Shown here one piece after another: positions 44,694 through 52,360 of a stretch of DNA of 64,000 nt. Within the stretch, counting starts at the first letter, position 1. Every line of letters begins with the position of its first letter. The DNA is from Pseudonocardia sp. (GTDB lineage Bacteria; Actinomycetota; Actinomycetes; Mycobacteriales; Pseudonocardiaceae), in NCBI RefSeq assembly GCF_029263155.1, contig NZ_JAJCYB010000016.1, positions 1 through 64,000 on the forward strand, read 5' to 3'. The notes below the pieces were generated by a model, which saw only the letters and a list, made by a program, of their open reading frames with translations, was not told the origin of the DNA and did no database searches. The position numbers and the translations under genes are program-made.

Positions 44694-46926
44694 ACCGCCG
44701 TCCAGCAGCCGGGGCAGGAGTACTGGCGGAACACCACCGGCGCGTCGACGTAGTCGGCCGGGTCGGCGAGCATCTGGGGTCCCGCGTCGGTCGAGGGGCC
44801 CTCGTGCACGCCGAGCCGCAGGGCGGCGGGCTCGCCGAGCCGCTCGCCGCAGTGCCGGCAGGCGATCACGGTGCGGCCGTCCTCGCTCACCTCGACGAGG
44901 TTGTCGTCGAGCCGGCGCCCGGTCGCGGCGTCGACCTTCGTCCCGGGCTCGCCGGTGACCGACGAGCGTGCCCGCCGTGCCGCGCGCCCGTGGTCCCGCT
45001 CGGCCGCCGTCGCCGCGGCGTCGATCTCGCCGCCGTCGAGGACGACACCGTAGACGTCGCGGGCGGCCGCGGCGGTGATCTTCTCCTCGCGCAGGTCCGC
45101 GGCCACGGCGGCCGGGTCGCGGTACAGCGGGTCACCGTAGCCGCCCCCGCCCTGCCAGGTCATGGCGAAGACCTCGCCGGGCGCGAGGTAGCTCGACGCG
45201 TAGTTCTGGCCGATCTCGCAGGTGTCGCTGACCTCGGCGAGCGTGGAGGGCACGGTCCCGGCGGCGAGCAGTTCCGCCACCCGGCTGCGCCGCGCGACGA
45301 CGTCGAGACCGCTGTTGCCGGGGTGCCCGCCCGACAGTCCCGCGTTCTGCGCGACGGCCTTGCCCGCCGACGCGAGCACCAGGCCCATCGGCAGCGACGT
45401 GCCGTGCGGGGTGATCGCCACCGACGCCCCGACGCCGCCGCGGTGCCGTCCCGGCCCGCCGGAGTCGGGTTCCTCGCGCCGCCACAGCGTGAGCACCGGG
45501 TAGAGGAACTCGGTCATCTCGACGTCGGGGATGCGGCCCATCGGGATGCAGAACAGGCCACCGGTGTCGATGCCGTCGGCGTGCGGGCGGGCGCCGTAGC
45601 CGCCGGCCATCGGCTCCATGATGATGTTGAGGAACGGGACGGGTTGCTCGCCGCGCTGGTCGAGGCCGGCGATGACCGCGGTGTCCCAGGTCCCGCAGCA
45701 GGTGGCCTGCACGTTGCGCCCCAGCTCCAGGTCGCGGTCGAGCATCTGCGACAGGCACTCCGCGACCAGGCTGCCGGTGAGCCACGCCGGGCCGATCGGG
45801 CCGCGCCCGACGGCGGCGGGGTAGGTCGCGTTGTTGAGCGTGCCCTCCTCGGTGACGAGGTCGAAGCAGCGCATCAGCCCCCGGCCGACCAGGGGATGTC
45901 CCCGGCGAGGATCGGCAGCAGCGCGAGCATGACGCCGCCGCGCATCCCGGCGTAGGTGCAGTTGATGACGCCGGCCTGCGGGTCGGTGCCGGTGAAGTCG
46001 AACGTCAGGTGCCCGCCGGTCTTGGTCGTGGTCACCGTGATGCGGTGCAGCCCGCGGTCGCCCTCGTGCGACTGGTCCTGGTAGCCCGTGGCGCTCCAGG
46101 AGCCGTCGGGCAGGCTCGTGAGCTTGTCGCGCAGGCGCGACTCGGCGTCGCTCATCATCCGCTTCATCACGGCCTTGACCGTGTCGGCCCCGTACTGCGC
46201 GATCAGCGCGAGGATGCGCTCCCGGCCGACGTTGTTCGCGCCGACCTTGGCCCGCAGGTCCAGCCCCACCAGCATCGGGACGCGCGAGCGGCGCACCCAC
46301 AGGTCGGCGACGTCGCGTTGCAGGGTGAACCCGCGCACCACCTTGACCGGAGGCGTGGGCAGCGACTCGGAGAACACGTCCTGGGCGGCGGGGGAGAAGG
46401 AGCCCAGCCCGACGCCACCGAGGTCGGGCTCGTGGCAGATGGCGCTGGTCCAGGCGAACAGCTTCCCCTCGTGGAAGACCGGCTGGTAGACCATCGTGTC
46501 GTTCTGGTGGAGCCCGCCGCCGACCCACGGGTCGTTGGTGAGGAACATGTCGCCCTCGGTGATGCCCGGGTTGACCGCGCGGTGCCGCAGCGTCCAGTAG
46601 ATCGCCAGGTCCACGGCGCCGACGAGCATCGTGTTGTACAGCCCGACCTGTACCTCCTGGCCGAGCTCGTCGGAGATGGCGAAGTCGAAGTCGTTCGCGT
46701 CGGTGACGATCGGCGAGCCGGACATGCGCTTGAGCGCCTCGCCCATCTCGTCGGTCACCGACCACAGGCGGTGCCGGACGACCTCGTAGGTGAGCGGGTC
46801 GAGGCCGTCGATCTGGTCCTGGGTGACGGTGTGCGTGGCCAGCGTCGACGGGAGCGAGGCCTGCAGCTCGGCCGGGTCCACGGGGCGGCTCGAGAAGACC
46901 TCGGAGCCGGGGATGGGCATGGTCAT
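44633..46926 (-). pseudogene. Hydantoinase B/acetone-carboxylase-type subunit with zinc-ribbon tail, frameshifted
   Basis: About 764 residues of an HyuB (ATP-dependent hydantoinase/acetone carboxylase alpha) family protein. The first frame starts at ATG 46926 (MPIPGSEVFSSRPVD) and runs to GDIPWSAGG. A stop follows because one base appears to be missing near 45880 (GGGGGCTGATG where GGGGGCCTGATG would keep frame). The second frame continues LMRCFDLVTEEGTLNNATYPA. The C-terminal 90 residues carry ACRHCGERLG and YSCPGCWTAVYS, cysteine pairs like those of acetone carboxylase gamma subunits, so the two subunits are fused. The gene starts overlapping the HyuA stop by 4 bases. The substrate, perhaps a ketone or hydantoin, is unknown. 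Confidence 0.78.
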
Positions 46927-49055
46927 GACGCGCTCCCGACGCTCGGGTGGAGAGGACTGGTGCGGATGGCGAGGTTGCCCAGGCGATCGACCGTGCCGCT
47001 GGTGCCGCCCGGGACGACGACGGTCGTGGTGGGCACCTCGACGACGGCGGGCCCGGTGAGCACGTGGCCCGCGCGCAGGCGCCGGTAGTCGTAGATCGGG
47101 GTGTCGACGAAACCGGTGGCGGCGTCGAGGCAGACCGGCCGGTCCCCGGTCCACGCCTGCGCGGGATCGGGCGACTCCGCGGCCGGGATCTCCGGGAACT
47201 CCGGGGAGAACGGCAGGGCCCCGACGCCGCGGACGCGGAACGTGATGGCCTGGATGCCGGCCTCCCGGAACCCGGCCTCCGCGCCGTACAGGGCCGCGTA
47301 GCGGGCCTCGAAGGCCGCGGCCGCGCCCTCGATCGCGGCCGTGTCGAGCGGCCCGCCCGGCACCGGCGCGGTGACCTCGGCGAGCTGCATCGTGTAGCGC
47401 ATGTCGATCTCGCGGAACAGCTCCACCGAGGAGAAGTCGACGCCCTGACGGCCCAGGCCGTCGCGCACGCGCTGCTCCAGCTCGGCGAAGTTGCGCTCCG
47501 CCCGCGCCGGGTCGAACGGGACGAACGTGGGGTCCGACAGCTCGGCGGCGAGCACGATGTCCGACGCCGCGAGCCCGAACGCGGAGAACGCCGAGGCCAC
47601 CGGCCCGAGCGGCACGACCACCTCGGCGACGCCCACCTCGGCGGCGTAGCGCGCGCAGTGCGCGGGCCCGGCGCCACCGAACGCGTAGAGCACGAACTCG
47701 CGCGGGTCGTGCCCGGCCTCGACGACGGACTTGCGCAGCAGGTCGCCGGTCTGCGCGTTCTGGACGGTGTGGATCGCGACCGCGGCCTCCTCGACGGACA
47801 GGCCGAGCGGCTTGGCGATCCGGATGTCGATGGCCTGCCGGGCCAGCTCCAGCGAGAGCGGCTTGCGGCCGCCGAGCAGGCCGCGCTCGGGCAGGATGCC
47901 CAGCACCAGGTTCGCGTCGGTGTTGGTCGGCTCGGTGCCGCCCTGGCCGTAGCAGGCCGGGCCGGGCACGGCCTGCGCGCTGCGCGGCCCGACCCGCAGG
48001 TTCCCGCCCGCGTCGAGCCAGGCGACGGCGCCACCGCCGGACCCGATCGCGTCCACCCGCAGCGTGGGCACGTTGATCGGGTGGTGGTTGATCACGGTGG
48101 TGGTGTCGCGCACCGGCTCCCCGTCGACGATCAGCCCGGCGAGGAACGTGGTGCCGCCGACGTCGGTGGAGATGATGTTGCGGTGGCCGAGCTGGCGCCC
48201 GAGCTGCACCGCGCCGACGACGCCGCCGGTGAGCACCGAGCCCACGGTGCTGATCGCGGCGGCCGGTGCCTCCGCGGCGGCCACGGCACCGCCGTTGCTC
48301 TGCATCACCAGCAGCGGCCCGGCGAGGCGCCGGGCCCGCAGCGCGTCCTCCAGCGTCGCGAGGTAGTCGCGCAGGCCGGGCCCGACCTGGGTGCTCATGA
48401 TCGTCGTCGCGTTGCGGGAGAACTCCCGGATGCGCGGGCTGACCTCGCTGGACAGCGCCACGAACACCTCCGGGTCCTGCTCGGCGACGAGCTCGCGCAG
48501 GCGCCGCTCGTGCGCGGGGTTGCGGAACGACCAGAGCAGCGACACCGCGATCGCGCGGACGCCGTCGTCGAGCAGGGCGCGGATCGAGGCCCGCGCCGCG
48601 TCCTCGTCGAGCGCGACGATGATGGTGCCGTCACGGTCGATGCGCTCGGTGACCTCCAGCGCGTGCCGCTTGGGCAGCAGGTGGTGGTTCTTGTCCTGCG
48701 CGAGGACGTGCTGCAGCTCGTGCGGCGAGCGGCCGAGGTAGCGGCCCTCGACGTTCATGATGAAGATCGAGTCGCGGTGGCCCTTCGTGGTCAGGAAGCC
48801 GACCGGTGGCACGTTGCCCGTCACCAGCGCGTTGAGCGAGGACGTCGTGCCGTGCGCGACGTGGTGGGTCCCGGCGAGGAGCTCGGGGAGGGGCCTGCCG
48901 ACCTGCTCGGCGAGCAGCTCCAGCGCGTCGAGCACGCCGCGGGAGTAGTCCGGTGGGGTCGACGGCGACTTCGCGGCGACCACCGTGCCGGCGTCGTCGT
49001 CGAGGACGGCATCGGTGAACGTGCCGCCCACGTCCACGCCGATGACATAGGTCAT
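46923..49055 (-). CDS. Hydantoinase A/acetone-carboxylase beta-type subunit
   Basis: A 710-residue HyuA-family protein of the actin-like ATPase fold. The N-terminal phosphate loop is IGVDVGGTFTDAVL, and STDVGGTTFLAGLIVDG is the second phosphate motif. Conserved blocks GTTSSLNALVTG and VGPRSAQAVPGPACYG are present. These subunits activate a carbonyl or amide substrate by phosphorylation together with the HyuB subunit. The gene is divergent from the flavin monooxygenase at 49159 with a 103-base promoter gap that contains an inverted repeat. Acetophenone or acetone carboxylation, hydantoin hydrolysis and N-methylhydantoinase activity are all possible; the fused zinc-ribbon tail of its partner leans toward a carboxylase. 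Confidence 0.82.
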   Translation of the reverse strand: MTYVIGVDVGGTFTDAVLDDDAGTVVAAKSPSTPPDYSRGVLDALELLAEQVGRPLPELLAGTHHVAHGTTSSLNALVTGNVPPVGFLTTKGHRDSIFIMNVEGRYLGRSPHELQHVLAQDKNHHLLPKRHALEVTERIDRDGTIIVALDEDAARASIRALLDDGVRAIAVSLLWSFRNPAHERRLRELVAEQDPEVFVALSSEVSPRIREFSRNATTIMSTQVGPGLRDYLATLEDALRARRLAGPLLVMQSNGGAVAAAEAPAAAISTVGSVLTGGVVGAVQLGRQLGHRNIISTDVGGTTFLAGLIVDGEPVRDTTTVINHHPINVPTLRVDAIGSGGGAVAWLDAGGNLRVGPRSAQAVPGPACYGQGGTEPTNTDANLVLGILPERGLLGGRKPLSLELARQAIDIRIAKPLGLSVEEAAVAIHTVQNAQTGDLLRKSVVEAGHDPREFVLYAFGGAGPAHCARYAAEVGVAEVVVPLGPVASAFSAFGLAASDIVLAAELSDPTFVPFDPARAERNFAELEQRVRDGLGRQGVDFSSVELFREIDMRYTMQLAEVTAPVPGGPLDTAAIEGAAAAFEARYAALYGAEAGFREAGIQAITFRVRGVGALPFSPEFPEIPAAESPDPAQAWTGDRPVCLDAATGFVDTPIYDYRRLRAGHVLTGPAVVEVPTTTVVVPGGTSGTVDRLGNLAIRTSPLHPSVGSAS

Positions 49056-49105
49056 GACTCACGCTCCTTCGCGGAGGCGGCCGCAGTGAGCTGCGGTCCT
49101 GACGG

Positions 49106-49132
49106 TTGCGTAGACTATTTAACGTCTGCGAA
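49106..49132. promoter_or_regulatory. Inverted repeat in the divergent hyuA/monooxygenase promoter
   Basis: TTGCGTAGAC (49106-49115) and GTCTGCGAA (49124-49132) form an inverted repeat with an AT-rich centre. The IclR at 43857 or the TetR at 52357 could bind it. Confidence 0.5.
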
Positions 49133-49158
49133 GGTAGTCAAGGACGAGGGGAGGGCCG

Positions 49159-50649
49159 ATGCGGCTTCGGCGGGTCGAGGTGCTCGGAGGCGGGCCCGGT
49201 GGCCTCTACGTCGCGCGCCTGCTCGCGCTGGCCCGCCCGGGCTGCGAGGTCGTCGTGCACGAGCAGGGCGAGCGCGGCACCACGTTCGGCTTCGGGGTCG
49301 GGCTCGCCGCGGGCACGCAGCGCAAGCTGGAGGCCGCCGACGCCGACACCCTGCGCGACATCCGGGCGGCCGGGCGTCGGCACGACATGACGATGGACGT
49401 CGGCGGCGCGGTCGCGCGGGTCCACAACGACAACCTGATCGGCATCGCGCGCACCGAGCTCCTCGAGGTGCTGGGGCGGCACGCGGAGAAGGCGGGCGTC
49501 CGGCTGGAGTACGGCGAGCGCCGGGCGGTCGCCGACGTCGACGCCGCCGACCTCGACGCCGACGTCGTGATCGCCGCGGACGGGGTCGGCAGTGCCACCC
49601 GCGAGGCCGGCGACTTCGGCGCGGGCGTGGAGCCGGGTCGCGGGCTGTTCCTGTGGTGCGGCGCCGCGTTCGCGCTCGACGACGCGGTGTTCGCGCCGGT
49701 CGACACGGAGTTCGGCACGTTCGTCACCCACGCCTACCCCTACGCCGAGGACCGCAGCACCTTCCTCGTCGAGACCGACGAGGCCACCTGGCGGGCCGCC
49801 GGCCTCGACGGCGCCGCCTCCGACGGGGGCACCTCGGACACCGCCTCGCTGGCCTACCTGTCCGAGGTGTTCGCCGGGCACCTGCGCGGCCATCCGCTGA
49901 TCGGCAACGGCACGCGCTGGCAGCGCTTCCGCACCGTCACCTGCGAACGCTGGTCCGACGGCCGCGTCGTGCTCCTCGGTGACGCCGCCCACACCGCCCA
50001 CTACTCCATCGGCTCGGGCACCAAGCTCGCCATGGAGGACGCGATCGCGCTGGTGGAGGCGCTGGGGGCGGAGCCGGACCGGGCCGCGGCGTTCGCGCGC
50101 TACGAGGCCGCGCGGCGTCCCTCCGTCGAGCGGCTGCAGGAACTGGCCCGGCGCAGCAGGCTGTGGTGGGAGTCCTTCGGTTCCCGGACGCACCTGCCGG
50201 TGGAGCGGCTGATGGTCTCCTACATGACCCGCGCCGGGAACGTGCCGCTCGACCGGTTCGCCGCCACGAGCCCGGACGTCGTCGGCGCGGCGCTGGGCCA
50301 GTACGCGGGCGTCGACCCGCAGGTCCCGGACGACCTGACCGGCTGGGTGCTCGACCGGTCGCGCCGCGACGCCCCGCCGGACGCGCTGGTCGTCGACGCC
50401 GTCGTGGACGATCCCTGGGGGCCGGAGGCCGACGCCGCGGTCGCCGCCGCCCGGGACACCGGGGCAGGCGCGTTCCGCGTCGTCGGACCGCCCGAGCGGC
50501 CCGCGGTACTGACCCGCCTCGACCTCGCCGAGCGCCTGCGCACCGAGGTGGGCGGGGTGGTCACCGTCGTGGGCCCGCCGGAGCTGCGCGACGACCTGGC
50601 CGCGGGGCTGGTCAGCGGGCGCGCCGACGTGGTCGGGTTCAGCTCGTGA
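49159..50649 (+). CDS. FAD-dependent monooxygenase, anthraniloyl/salicylyl-CoA monooxygenase-like
   Basis: A 496-residue flavoprotein hydroxylase. The Rossmann motif VLGGGPGGLYVARLLALA is at the start, the second FAD motif is RVVLLGDAAHTAHYSIGSGTKLAMEDAIAL, and the spacing resembles the N-terminal half of anthraniloyl-CoA monooxygenase and salicylyl-CoA 5-hydroxylase. Only about 130 residues follow the flavoprotein domain, ending TEVGGVVTVVGPPELRDDLA, LVSGRADVVGF. This looks like the end of an Old Yellow Enzyme-type barrel, while the middle of that barrel is missing. The ATG has GGGGAGG upstream. The acyl-CoA ligase gene starts within its stop, so a CoA-thioester substrate is likely. Confidence 0.72.
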   Translation: MRLRRVEVLGGGPGGLYVARLLALARPGCEVVVHEQGERGTTFGFGVGLAAGTQRKLEAADADTLRDIRAAGRRHDMTMDVGGAVARVHNDNLIGIARTELLEVLGRHAEKAGVRLEYGERRAVADVDAADLDADVVIAADGVGSATREAGDFGAGVEPGRGLFLWCGAAFALDDAVFAPVDTEFGTFVTHAYPYAEDRSTFLVETDEATWRAAGLDGAASDGGTSDTASLAYLSEVFAGHLRGHPLIGNGTRWQRFRTVTCERWSDGRVVLLGDAAHTAHYSIGSGTKLAMEDAIALVEALGAEPDRAAAFARYEAARRPSVERLQELARRSRLWWESFGSRTHLPVERLMVSYMTRAGNVPLDRFAATSPDVVGAALGQYAGVDPQVPDDLTGWVLDRSRRDAPPDALVVDAVVDDPWGPEADAAVAAARDTGAGAFRVVGPPERPAVLTRLDLAERLRTEVGGVVTVVGPPELRDDLAAGLVSGRADVVGFSS

Positions 50650-52360
50650 GGGCCGACGACCCGCGGCTCGTGCCGTACCCGCCGGAGGTCGCGCGCCGCT
50701 ACCGCGAGGCCGGGCTGTGGGGTACGCGGACCATCGCCGAGGAGTTCCACGCCGTCGCCGCCGCGCACCCGGACCGGCTCGCGGTGATCGGCTTCGCGGG
50801 CCGGCCGGCCCCGTCGCAGCCGGCCCCGTCACGGCCCGCCGGATTGCAGCATGGCCACCTTCACGCCACCACGTTGCATGAAGGTGGCCTTCCTGCAATC
50901 GCGCGGCTGACCTACCGCGAGCTGGACGCGGCCTCCGACCTGCTCGCCGCCGCCCTCGCCGGGCGCGGCCTGCGGCCCGGCGACCCGGTGCTGTTCCAGG
51001 TGACCAACCGGGTCGGGTCGGTCGTGGCCTGGTACGGGGTGCTCAAGGCGGGGCTGGTGCCGGTGTGCACGCTCGCCGCGCACCGCGGCCACGAGATCGG
51101 GGAGATCAGCCGCCGCGTCGGGGCGGTCGCCCATCTCGTGGAGGCGGGCACCCGCGGGTTCGACCTGGTGGCCTTCGCCGCGCAGCAGCAGTCCGGGCAC
51201 CCGACGCTGCGGCACGTGCTGGTGCTCGACGAGCCCGTACCCGACGCCGACCCGACGTCCGCGCGGACGGTCGTCGAGGAGATCCAGCGCGACGTCGGCG
51301 TCGACGACGTCGCGGTGTTCCAGCTCTCCGGCGGCACGACCGGGGTGCCCAAGGTGATCCCCCGGCGGCACGCCGAGTACTGGTACAACGCGGCCGAGTA
51401 CGCGCGGTCGTGGGGATGGACGCCCGGCACCCGGGTCGCGCACCTCATCCCGGTGATCCACAACGCCGGCATCGTCTGCGCGGTGCACGCCCCGCACAGC
51501 GTCGGCGCAGCCCTGGTGCTCGGCCCGGCCGACCTCGACGAGTCGCTGCCGCTGCTCGCCGCGGCCGGGGCCACGCACGTGCTGCTCGGGCACGGCCACT
51601 TCGGCGCGCCCGACCATCCCGCGTTCGACGCCGTGGCCCGCACGTTGGAGCAGGTCGTGCTGTCCGGTGCGAAGGTCCCGCCGGCGCTGTTCGACGGGCT
51701 GGAACGCCGGGGCCTGTGGTCGGCGCAGCTGTTCGGGATGGGCGAGGGCCTGTTCCTCACCACCCGTCCCGGCGCGCCCCGCCCGGCCCGCGCGACCACC
51801 GTGGGTACCCCGCTCTCCCCGCTGGACGAGGTGCGCGTCCTGGAGCCGGGCACCGAGGACGAGGTGCCCGACGGGGAGGTCGGGGAGCTGTGCTGCCGCG
51901 GGCCGTACACCCTGCGCGGCTACCTCGACGCACCCGAGCACAACGCCCGCGCGTTCACCGCCGACGGCTTCTACCGCACCGGGGACCTCGCCGCGATCCG
52001 GTGCATCGACGGCGAGCGGTACGTCGTGATCGAGGGCCGGATCAAGGACCTCTCAACCGGGGCGGCGAGAAGATCAGCGCCGAGGAGGTCGAGCTGCTGC
52101 TGCGGCGCCATCCGCGCGTGCGCGACGCGGCCGTCGTCGCGGTGCCGGACCCGCGGCTGGGCGAGCGGGCCTGCGCGTTCCTCGTCCTCGACGGGCCGCC
52201 GCTCACGCTCGCGGACGTGCAGGGCCACTTCGCGGCGCTGCAGGTGGCGAAGTTCAAGTGGCCCGAACGCGTCGAGCACCTCGCCGAGATCCCCCGCACG
52301 CTCGTCGGGAAGGTCGACAAGAAGCGCCTGCAGACGGCCGCACTACGATCCCCGGTATGA
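50646..52360 (+). pseudogene. Acyl-CoA (aryl-CoA) ligase, frameshifted near its C-terminus
   Basis: About 570 residues of an AMP-forming acyl-CoA synthetase resembling EntE/salicylate-CoA ligases (YPPEVARRYREAGLWGTRTIAEEF, then VFQLSGGTTGVPKVIPRRHAEY as the P-loop motif, and RTGDLAAIRCIDGERYVVIEGRIKDL). Near 52050-52053 one base is missing from the sequence expected for DLINRGGEKI, so the frame changes; the C-terminal domain with NRGGEKISAEEVELLLRR and GKVDKKRLQ is intact in the other frame. A palindromic element of about 59 bases interrupts the N-terminal region in frame. GTG 50646 overlaps the monooxygenase stop and the end overlaps the TetR start. An aromatic acid such as salicylate or anthranilate is a guess. 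Confidence 0.75.
50842..50900. repeat. Palindromic element inserted in the ligase gene
   Basis: GATTGCAG (50842-50849) is the inverse of CTGCAATC at 50893-50900, and GGCCACCTTCA pairs with TGAAGGTGGCC between them. The arms match over about 25 of 29 positions. It encodes in frame the low-complexity residues LQHGHLHATTLHEGGLPAI, absent from the family consensus between VIGF and LTYRELD. Confidence 0.75.

Follow-up and report, generated by a model that had tools for sequence, protein, structure and literature searches.

Short palindromic repeats are described in bacterial genomes. REPINs are doublets of REP sequences that form hairpins, and they are thought to be moved by RAYTs (PMC3116915). 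REPs with GTAG or CGTC tags are reported to lie for the most part no further than 20 bp from a gene 3′ end, where the neighbouring genes are convergent or unidirectional; more than half of those inside ORFs are said to be dimers or groups encoding 20-30 residues, many of them in genes of DNA synthesis or repair (PMC3733652). The phyla named as carrying REPs in the relevant part of that report are Proteobacteria, Cyanobacteria, Chloroflexi, the PVC group, Chlorobi, Bacteroidetes, Spirochaetes and Thermotogae, and the word Actinobacteria is absent from its text. A REP survey of 2025 tabulates three Actinomycetota genomes, and the word Pseudonocardia does not occur in it (PMC12306157). Protein-coding palindromes are described in Rickettsia and Wolbachia, according to titles cited in PMC2229807, which reports in-frame Rickettsia elements and an enzymatically active guanylate kinase carrying such an insert; RPEs are treated also in PMC10969869. 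Among the top-ranked titles and abstracts of open-access papers, we found no description of the Pseudonocardia repeat family treated here.

Here we analyze a palindrome in a stretch of 64,000 nucleotides from Pseudonocardia sp. (positions 1 to 64,000 of contig NZ_JAJCYB010000016.1, hereafter the window). An initial annotation had regarded it as a mobile element that entered an acyl-CoA ligase gene without breaking the reading frame.

A palindromic doublet in a ligase gene

The inverted repeat GATTGCAG...CTGCAATC is present at 50842-50900, as had been annotated, and forms a near-perfect palindrome of 59 bp including an outer G-C pair. It is assigned to neither strand, and is defined by the sequence, the fold z score and an alignment of 41 copies; its core is the 57 bp at 50843-50899. 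On the + strand, a left 25-bp palindromic unit with the centre CCA (50844-50868; alignment columns 2-26, pairing i+j=28) is followed by a 5-bp spacer (50869-50873, from the family alignment) and by a right, inverted 25-bp unit with the centre TGG (50874-50898; columns 32-56, pairing i+j=88). The spacer region contains CTCG in 31 and CGAG in 7 of the 88 copies analyzed below. The fold energy of the element is -32.7 kcal/mol on the + strand and -38.3 kcal/mol on the - strand (z = -7.3 and -7.6, respectively), and neither value was reached by any of 200 shuffles. The arm motif GAAGGTGGCCNTNNTGCA has two exact matches in the window, one per arm, and nine matches with up to 3 mismatches, compared with 1.35 expected; nine were reached in none of 100 shuffles. 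Rfam gave no family match to the element (E up to 1, window 50300-51500).

The first part of the host gene, an AMP-binding ligase (PF00501) whose GTG start overlaps the upstream stop, was located at 50646-52055 (+ strand) from the ORF and Pfam, and its C-terminal part, in another frame after a one-base frameshift, at 52056-52360 (+ strand) from the ORF and the homologue alignment. The element corresponds to ligase codons 67-85, and the reading frame is open through it, yielding LQHGHLHATTLHEGGLPAI. The frame is unbroken at the palindrome itself; further on, the gene as sequenced is interrupted, and compared with the homologues IKDL is followed by NRGGEK in another frame near 52055 (window 52040-52080). 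This frameshift is separate from the palindrome and may be either a real pseudogene mutation or a base error of the draft contig; because it affects the C-terminal part, this ligase protein may be dead, unless the base call is wrong.

The extra sequence is not confined to the 59 bases. The ligase is 34 residues (102 bp) longer than its homologues; 39 other places with a homologous ligase were listed, and none of the 29 that were aligned carries the insertion. The 34-codon stretch that these loci lack lies at 50802-50903 (+ strand; from the protein alignment, with borders ambiguous by one residue). The palindrome contributes 19 of the extra residues, and the rest consists of about 45 bp of G+C-rich DNA with two tandem 15-bp repeats, GCCGGCCCCGTCGCA / GCCGGCCCCGTCACG, read from the sequence at 50804-50833 (+ strand) and encoding PAPSQ PAPSR. 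These repeats are located directly upstream of the palindrome and inside the stretch missing from the homologues; thus, the insertion is larger than the element. With these additional 45 bp or so and the separate downstream frameshift, the ligase is a poor exemplar of the family described below.

By sequence, the nearest solved structure to the ligase is the salicylate-AMP ligase 5wm2, on whose chain the insert maps between residues 69 and 71, immediately ahead of the part that aligns with RLTYRELD. The best NCBIfam model is TIGR02275, with a score far under its cut-off, and the substrate is presumably an aryl acid. The neighbourhood (window 46923-50649) suggests aromatic-acid breakdown: the flavin monooxygenase overlapping the ligase start resembles salicylyl-CoA 5-hydroxylase, and a caprolactamase/acetophenone-carboxylase-like subunit is encoded nearby on the opposite strand, both below the cut-off.

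A dispersed family of inverted doublets

The genome (G000) is a draft of 5.85 Mb in 133 contigs, with an estimated completeness of 99% and contamination of 6%. The search for other copies that had been proposed as a check gave at least 40 places, counted among the best 40 of 62 candidates scored, and one more copy in one of the retrieved stretches, after removal of the duplicates L001, L004 and L005 (identical to the window, L009 and L010). The genome therefore holds at least 41 copies, at least 40 of them in addition to that of the ligase. The 41 copies give a gap-free alignment with a mean column identity of 89%, and their flanks differ. The two findings that would have refuted the initial annotation, an insertion present in every homologue or an absence of other copies, were both looked for and not obtained. 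Four more copies were detected by pattern search. Two of them have both units in the same orientation (L071, about 1470-1520, and L072, about 1465-1515, with the centres CCA..CCA and TGG..TGG), and the two others (L070 and L073, near the ends of contigs C21 and C30) are degenerate and have similar flanks, being possibly one repeated locus split by the assembly.

Each copy follows the plan TTGC-NNN-AAGG-CCA-CCTT-NNN-GCAA plus its inverse, 25 bp each with 5 bp between, and both units together fold into one 57-nt hairpin. A genome-wide search for the arm motif with up to 2 mismatches gave 100 matches, compared with 15 for the reversed control. Among the matches with up to 1 mismatch, inspection of five odd ones left only C28:58936 outside any doublet. 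Because almost every arm match is within a doublet, the doublet is considered to be the unit; doublets predominate over single units across the whole genome, as in the definition of REPINs.

The hairpin formed between the two arms is supported by covariation. In 88 full-length copies from ten genomes (the incomplete L089 and L106 were excluded), 73 doubly changed cells retained Watson-Crick pairing, compared with 43.8 (sd 3.9) in shuffles that leave the relatedness among copies in place, and this number was reached in none of 300 shuffles. The pair 8-50 is G-C in 41 copies and C-G in 24, and the pair 11-47 is G-C in 70 and A-T in 12; reciprocal types such as those at 8-50 are hard to obtain otherwise, that is, by relatedness. 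A small hairpin of each unit was also considered as the conserved structure and rejected, as double changes within the units (5 versus 3.5, reached by 65 of 300 shuffles, and 4 versus 2.3, reached by 48 of 300) were not clearly above the shuffles.

Distribution across genomes

A covariance model of the repeat, with at most the best 70 candidates scored per genome and both strands counted, matched 30 of 80 genomes: G000 itself and 29 of the 47 further genomes from its genus. The remaining 32, which represent different families of the same order, had none. Among 150 genomes drawn from the Pseudonocardiaceae, 23 had matches at E <= 1e-4; three of them are Pseudonocardia, and the matching genomes span 14 of 46 genera. 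Twenty of the weaker matches were inspected, which came from 8 genomes in 6 genera other than Pseudonocardia; they keep the plan with changed letters, for example ACTGCAGTGAAGGCCACCTTCACTGCGTTCAACGCAGTGAAGGTGGCCTTCACTGCAGT, or copies with the centres CCC/GGG and GGGAACC/GGTTCCC, and these look-alikes presumably share descent with the Pseudonocardia repeat. The exact core pattern was found in 44 stretches in a collection of 84,980 species represented by one genome each; these stretches belong to five assemblies, whose titles read Pseudonocardia or Pseudonocardiales. The collections of plasmids, phages and viral contigs gave no match to the element, and sources of these kinds were set aside.

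Copies inside genes share one phase

Internal copies of G000 are located in five genes, encoding the ligase, a biotin carboxylase alpha subunit (L016), L-aspartate oxidase NadB (L020), a lipoyl-dependent E2 acyltransferase (L036) and RecF (L037). Three more were found in other genomes, in genes for RecF (L093), HypF (L102) and an AbrB-like membrane protein (L112). All eight, in seven different host genes, are read in one phase and add a recurrent 19-residue peptide, LQxxHLHAxxLxEGGxxA with small variations. Thus, what had been noticed in one gene extends to six other host genes, and in-frame insertion of a recurrent peptide into unrelated conserved genes, a feature of RPEs, is observed here for seven hosts.

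Per strand, two phases are open in 82-85 of the 88 copies and the third, which usually holds a stop, in 3-8. The other open phase reads CSKATFTQ..CVKVALLQ, which is more hydrophobic and contains cysteine; it was not found internally, and is used once, as the 20-residue C-terminal tail of an aminotransferase-like ORF (L009:4379-4435). If both open phases were equally acceptable, simple arithmetic gives a probability of 1/128 for the bias in seven host genes. The uniform phase of the coding copies suggests that selection removes copies that contain stops or use the other open phase.

The location within the protein varies among the hosts, and some of the inserts occupy linkers. According to Pfam boundaries, the E2 insert (209-228) lies between the E3-binding domain, which ends at 202, and the catalytic domain, which starts at 233, and the biotin carboxylase insert lies between the C-terminal and BT domains (437 / 442-461 / 469). 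The NadB insert follows the FAD domain, and the inserts of RecF and HypF are inside the family matches, not in linkers between domains.

Homologues free of the insert were observed for four hosts: the ligase, RecF, NadB and the biotin carboxylase. For the latter three, the best 30 places each, G000 included, were compared (loci L129-L188 for RecF and NadB). The RecF insert is present in 3 of 30 genus homologues (G000, G006 and G023) and absent from 27, and that of NadB is present in 7 of 30 (G000, G005, G047, G008, G091, G088 and G023), some being strongly diverged yet still open; the biotin carboxylase and ligase sites are each filled in 1 of 30. The insertions are not clean, as indicated by the 45 bp beyond the element in the ligase and by a net gain in RecF of G000 of 14 residues, not 19.

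In a tree of gap-free RecF and NadB columns from 23 genomes, one clade (support 0.945) unites G006 and G000 with five others, and G023 is weakly adjoined to it (0.483). G000 is closer to the five than G006 is with a support of only 0.24, and the tree of NadB only places G023 elsewhere. RecF inserts occur in G023, G006 and G000, and NadB inserts in G023, G000 and the five, not in G006. This distribution is not what one simple gain on the tree would leave. Single-site losses or repeated insertion at the same places may have produced the pattern, and G023 hints at the latter.

Proposed origin

Taken as a whole, the data make it probable, though well short of certain, that the element is a non-autonomous, REPIN-like hairpin repeat of Pseudonocardia, moved by something other than a Y1/RAYT transposase and tolerated within genes at permissive places in one phase. 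Its mobility, which the initial annotation had proposed, is inferred from the dispersal of the copies, from their differing flanks and from presence and absence at orthologous sites. The doublet of two inverted 25-bp units would multiply within genomes as a non-autonomous unit, perhaps with the hairpin as its mobile form, by machinery other than the Y1 tyrosine transposase (RAYT) on which known REPINs rely. Most of the copies that persist would be those just past stop codons, where the hairpin is expected to do little harm and may serve as a bidirectional 3′ end, whereas a coding copy would persist only if the protein tolerates 19 more codons at that place and the copy is read in the LQxxHLHAxxLxEGGxxA phase.

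A more specific version is tentative and has perhaps a minority chance of being correct. It regards the repeats as actinobacterial coding palindromes, that is, AAGG-NNN-CCTT hairpin doublets of several Pseudonocardiaceae genera, which spread without a known transposase class and leave untidy junctions and no target duplication, perhaps because hairpin single strands are captured at repaired breaks. Different lineages would have gained them repeatedly at identical permissive sites in core genes such as RecF and NadB.

Most copies lie behind genes

Genes were called with a home-made finder based on codon usage, which missed the frameshifted ligase itself. In G000, 35 of 41 copies are intergenic, in line with the extragenic, high-copy character of REPINs; 10 lie between convergent, 21 between tandem and 4 between divergent genes. 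Nine other Pseudonocardia genomes contributed 49 copies (L075-L078, L080 and L081 were left out as duplicates, by coordinates, of G000 or named loci), of which 41 are intergenic with both neighbours, 3 are inside genes and 5 are at contig edges; the last five, with a missing neighbour, were left out of the placement counts. The 41 intergenic copies comprise 21 convergent, 20 tandem and 0 divergent cases.

In the window and 44 loci, gene pairs without the element were 48 convergent, 192 tandem and 67 divergent, and 41% of the intergenic bases were divergent. Evaluated by length, the depletion of divergent positions is significant in this genome (p = 1.5e-4) and in the others (p = 4.6e-10). When gene pairs are counted instead, the others still show it (p = 4e-5), but for this genome alone it is not significant (p = 0.09). 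A gene 3′ end adjoins 72 of the intergenic copies, and in 54 of these cases the distance is no more than 20 bp; the median distance to the nearest 3′ end is 12 bp in this genome and its sister genomes alike. The look-alikes of other genera (L224-L243) also mostly adjoin gene 3′ ends.

Some copies contribute to the adjacent gene. At L010:4845-4901 and L017:1500-1556, the predicted ATG start of the neighbour is formed at the element border (..GCAATG), and at L008:1500-1556 the element supplies a stop codon.

The strong placement behind genes could result from selection against damage elsewhere or from a function at the 3′ end. The latter would make the element a functional family, a bidirectional 3′-end hairpin (terminator or mRNA stabiliser) that is under selection and copied by gene conversion or recombination, with coding copies being accidental. 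This explanation deserves attention but is unlikely, about one chance in a few at best. The median of 12 bp from gene 3′ ends, the 21 convergent and 0 divergent copies of 41 in the sister genomes and the arm-to-arm covariation speak for it, and the look-alikes of other genera are placed alike (of 20, 9 are convergent, 10 tandem and 1 divergent). However, no T-run site was found after the hairpin in a scan of window 50400-51400, and the outward flanks of the 41 copies are G-rich, not T-rich; without a T-run behind it, the hairpin is not a canonical intrinsic terminator. Moreover, genus genomes vary from zero matches to the limit set on scoring, which is unexpected for a needed terminator, and a strong terminator in frame in RecF and NadB would be expected to hinder transcription.

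We also considered a hairpin target, since many copies seemed to be enclosed as the loop by longer hairpins rich in G+C, and dropped it as unproven. The duplex energy of a flank with its own partner was -17.9, versus -17.5 (sd 0.58) with swapped partners, and local complement scores were reached by 46-248 of 500 swaps at five flank lengths. One of seven complement offsets was reached by 28 of 500 swaps, and letters shuffled inside the flanks reached the complement value in 12 of 200. The flanks have a weak outward preference for G at +3, +4 and +7 to +9.

Candidates for the mover

The Y1/RAYT transposase family PF01797 has no match in G000, whereas 5 of 14 control genomes do match. Five of 60 genus genomes have it: G003, G007, G014 and G021, which have element matches, and G019, which has none. 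Of the 30 element-bearing genomes, 26, including G000, are without a PF01797 match; G005, G006, G008, G018, G023 and G047, all rich in element matches, are among the genomes without one. None of 88 copies has a GTAG or CGTC tag at either end; CGTC is present in the central region of five. No target-site duplication was recognized at 41 copies, abutting exact direct repeats being 0-4 bp in a scan at offset 0 of the 57-bp ends only. The search with the arm motif detected no obvious parent IS with the same ends in this one draft genome. No mobilising enzyme was found, and no transposition event was observed in these sequence comparisons.

These results bear on two other origins. The element could be a MITE, derived by deletion from a DDE insertion sequence whose terminal inverted repeats it shares; it is short, palindromic, dispersed and present in several host genes, and MITEs fused in frame are described (PMC10969869, PMC2229807). 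We regard this as improbable, because no target-site duplication was recognized at the 41 copies, and because nearly all matches of the arm search fell in doublets, which leaves no obvious parent IS in this draft genome.

That the element is a canonical REPIN moved by RAYT, a Y1/HUH transposase, is more improbable still and largely refuted. An extragenic inverted doublet that forms a hairpin and has a high copy number corresponds to the definition as given in PMC3116915, and four of the five genus genomes with PF01797 also have element matches. Nevertheless, only 4 of the 30 element-bearing genomes have the transposase, G019 has it with no element match, the six match-rich genomes have none, and neither GTAG nor CGTC is found at the ends of the 88 copies. 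As PF01797 has no match in 26 of the 30 element-bearing genomes, this one included, we reject RAYT as the mobiliser.

Ordinary coding variation or a chance palindrome in the ligase is refuted: although the extra 45 bp with tandem 15-mers look like slippage, there are 40 further aligned copies, the fold z is below -7, and the insertion is absent from the 29 homologous loci.

Comparison with known systems

The family belongs to free-living, G+C-rich actinobacteria and lacks a matching RAYT, and therefore allows two questions to be addressed in an independent case, namely by what means small palindromic repeats spread in the absence of the tyrosine transposase, and how often conserved enzymes gain foreign peptide segments. 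Because the inserts are partly common to sister species and empty sites exist, both the movement and the effect of the 19 residues in RecF and NadB are testable in these harmless soil bacteria.

The element works like a REPIN and behaves like an RPE, and has neither the tag nor the transposase expected of these families. As in REPINs and BIMEs of Pseudomonas and E. coli, a pair of inverted units forms a hairpin, and the doublet is the unit that multiplies (as described in PMC3116915). Like REPs, it adjoins gene 3′ ends in convergent and tandem arrangements, with some copies in frame, including in repair genes (compare the REPs treated in PMC3733652). Unlike REPINs, it has no GTAG tag and no Y1/RAYT match in the genome, and its host is an actinobacterium.

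Similar to RPEs, as far as they are portrayed in PMC2229807, PMC10969869 and PMC3733652, a palindrome is found in frame in many unrelated conserved genes, encodes a recurrent peptide and has homologues in other species of the genus. In length it differs from the RPE families as described, with 57 bp here versus 105-146 bp; in addition, RPE-4/6 are placed in the CGTC class, to which the Pseudonocardia element does not belong. Furthermore, 35 of 41 copies here are intergenic, unlike RPEs, and the host is free-living and G+C-rich, not obligately intracellular.

With MITEs such as ERIC and Correia, the element shares the properties described in PMC2229807 and PMC10969869 of short non-autonomous repeats with hairpin transcripts and open frames fused to genes. 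Unlike in MITEs, no TA or other target duplication was recognized, and the palindrome fills the whole element, whereas that of a MITE flanks a body.

PARCELs are also dyad-symmetric DNA coding for a recurrent motif, of about 25 residues, and are characterized in PMC2996958 as arranged in tandem within ORFs to which no function is assigned, many having membrane-targeting sequences. In contrast, the Pseudonocardia element occurs as single copies, and the coding ones reside mostly in conserved metabolic and repair genes.
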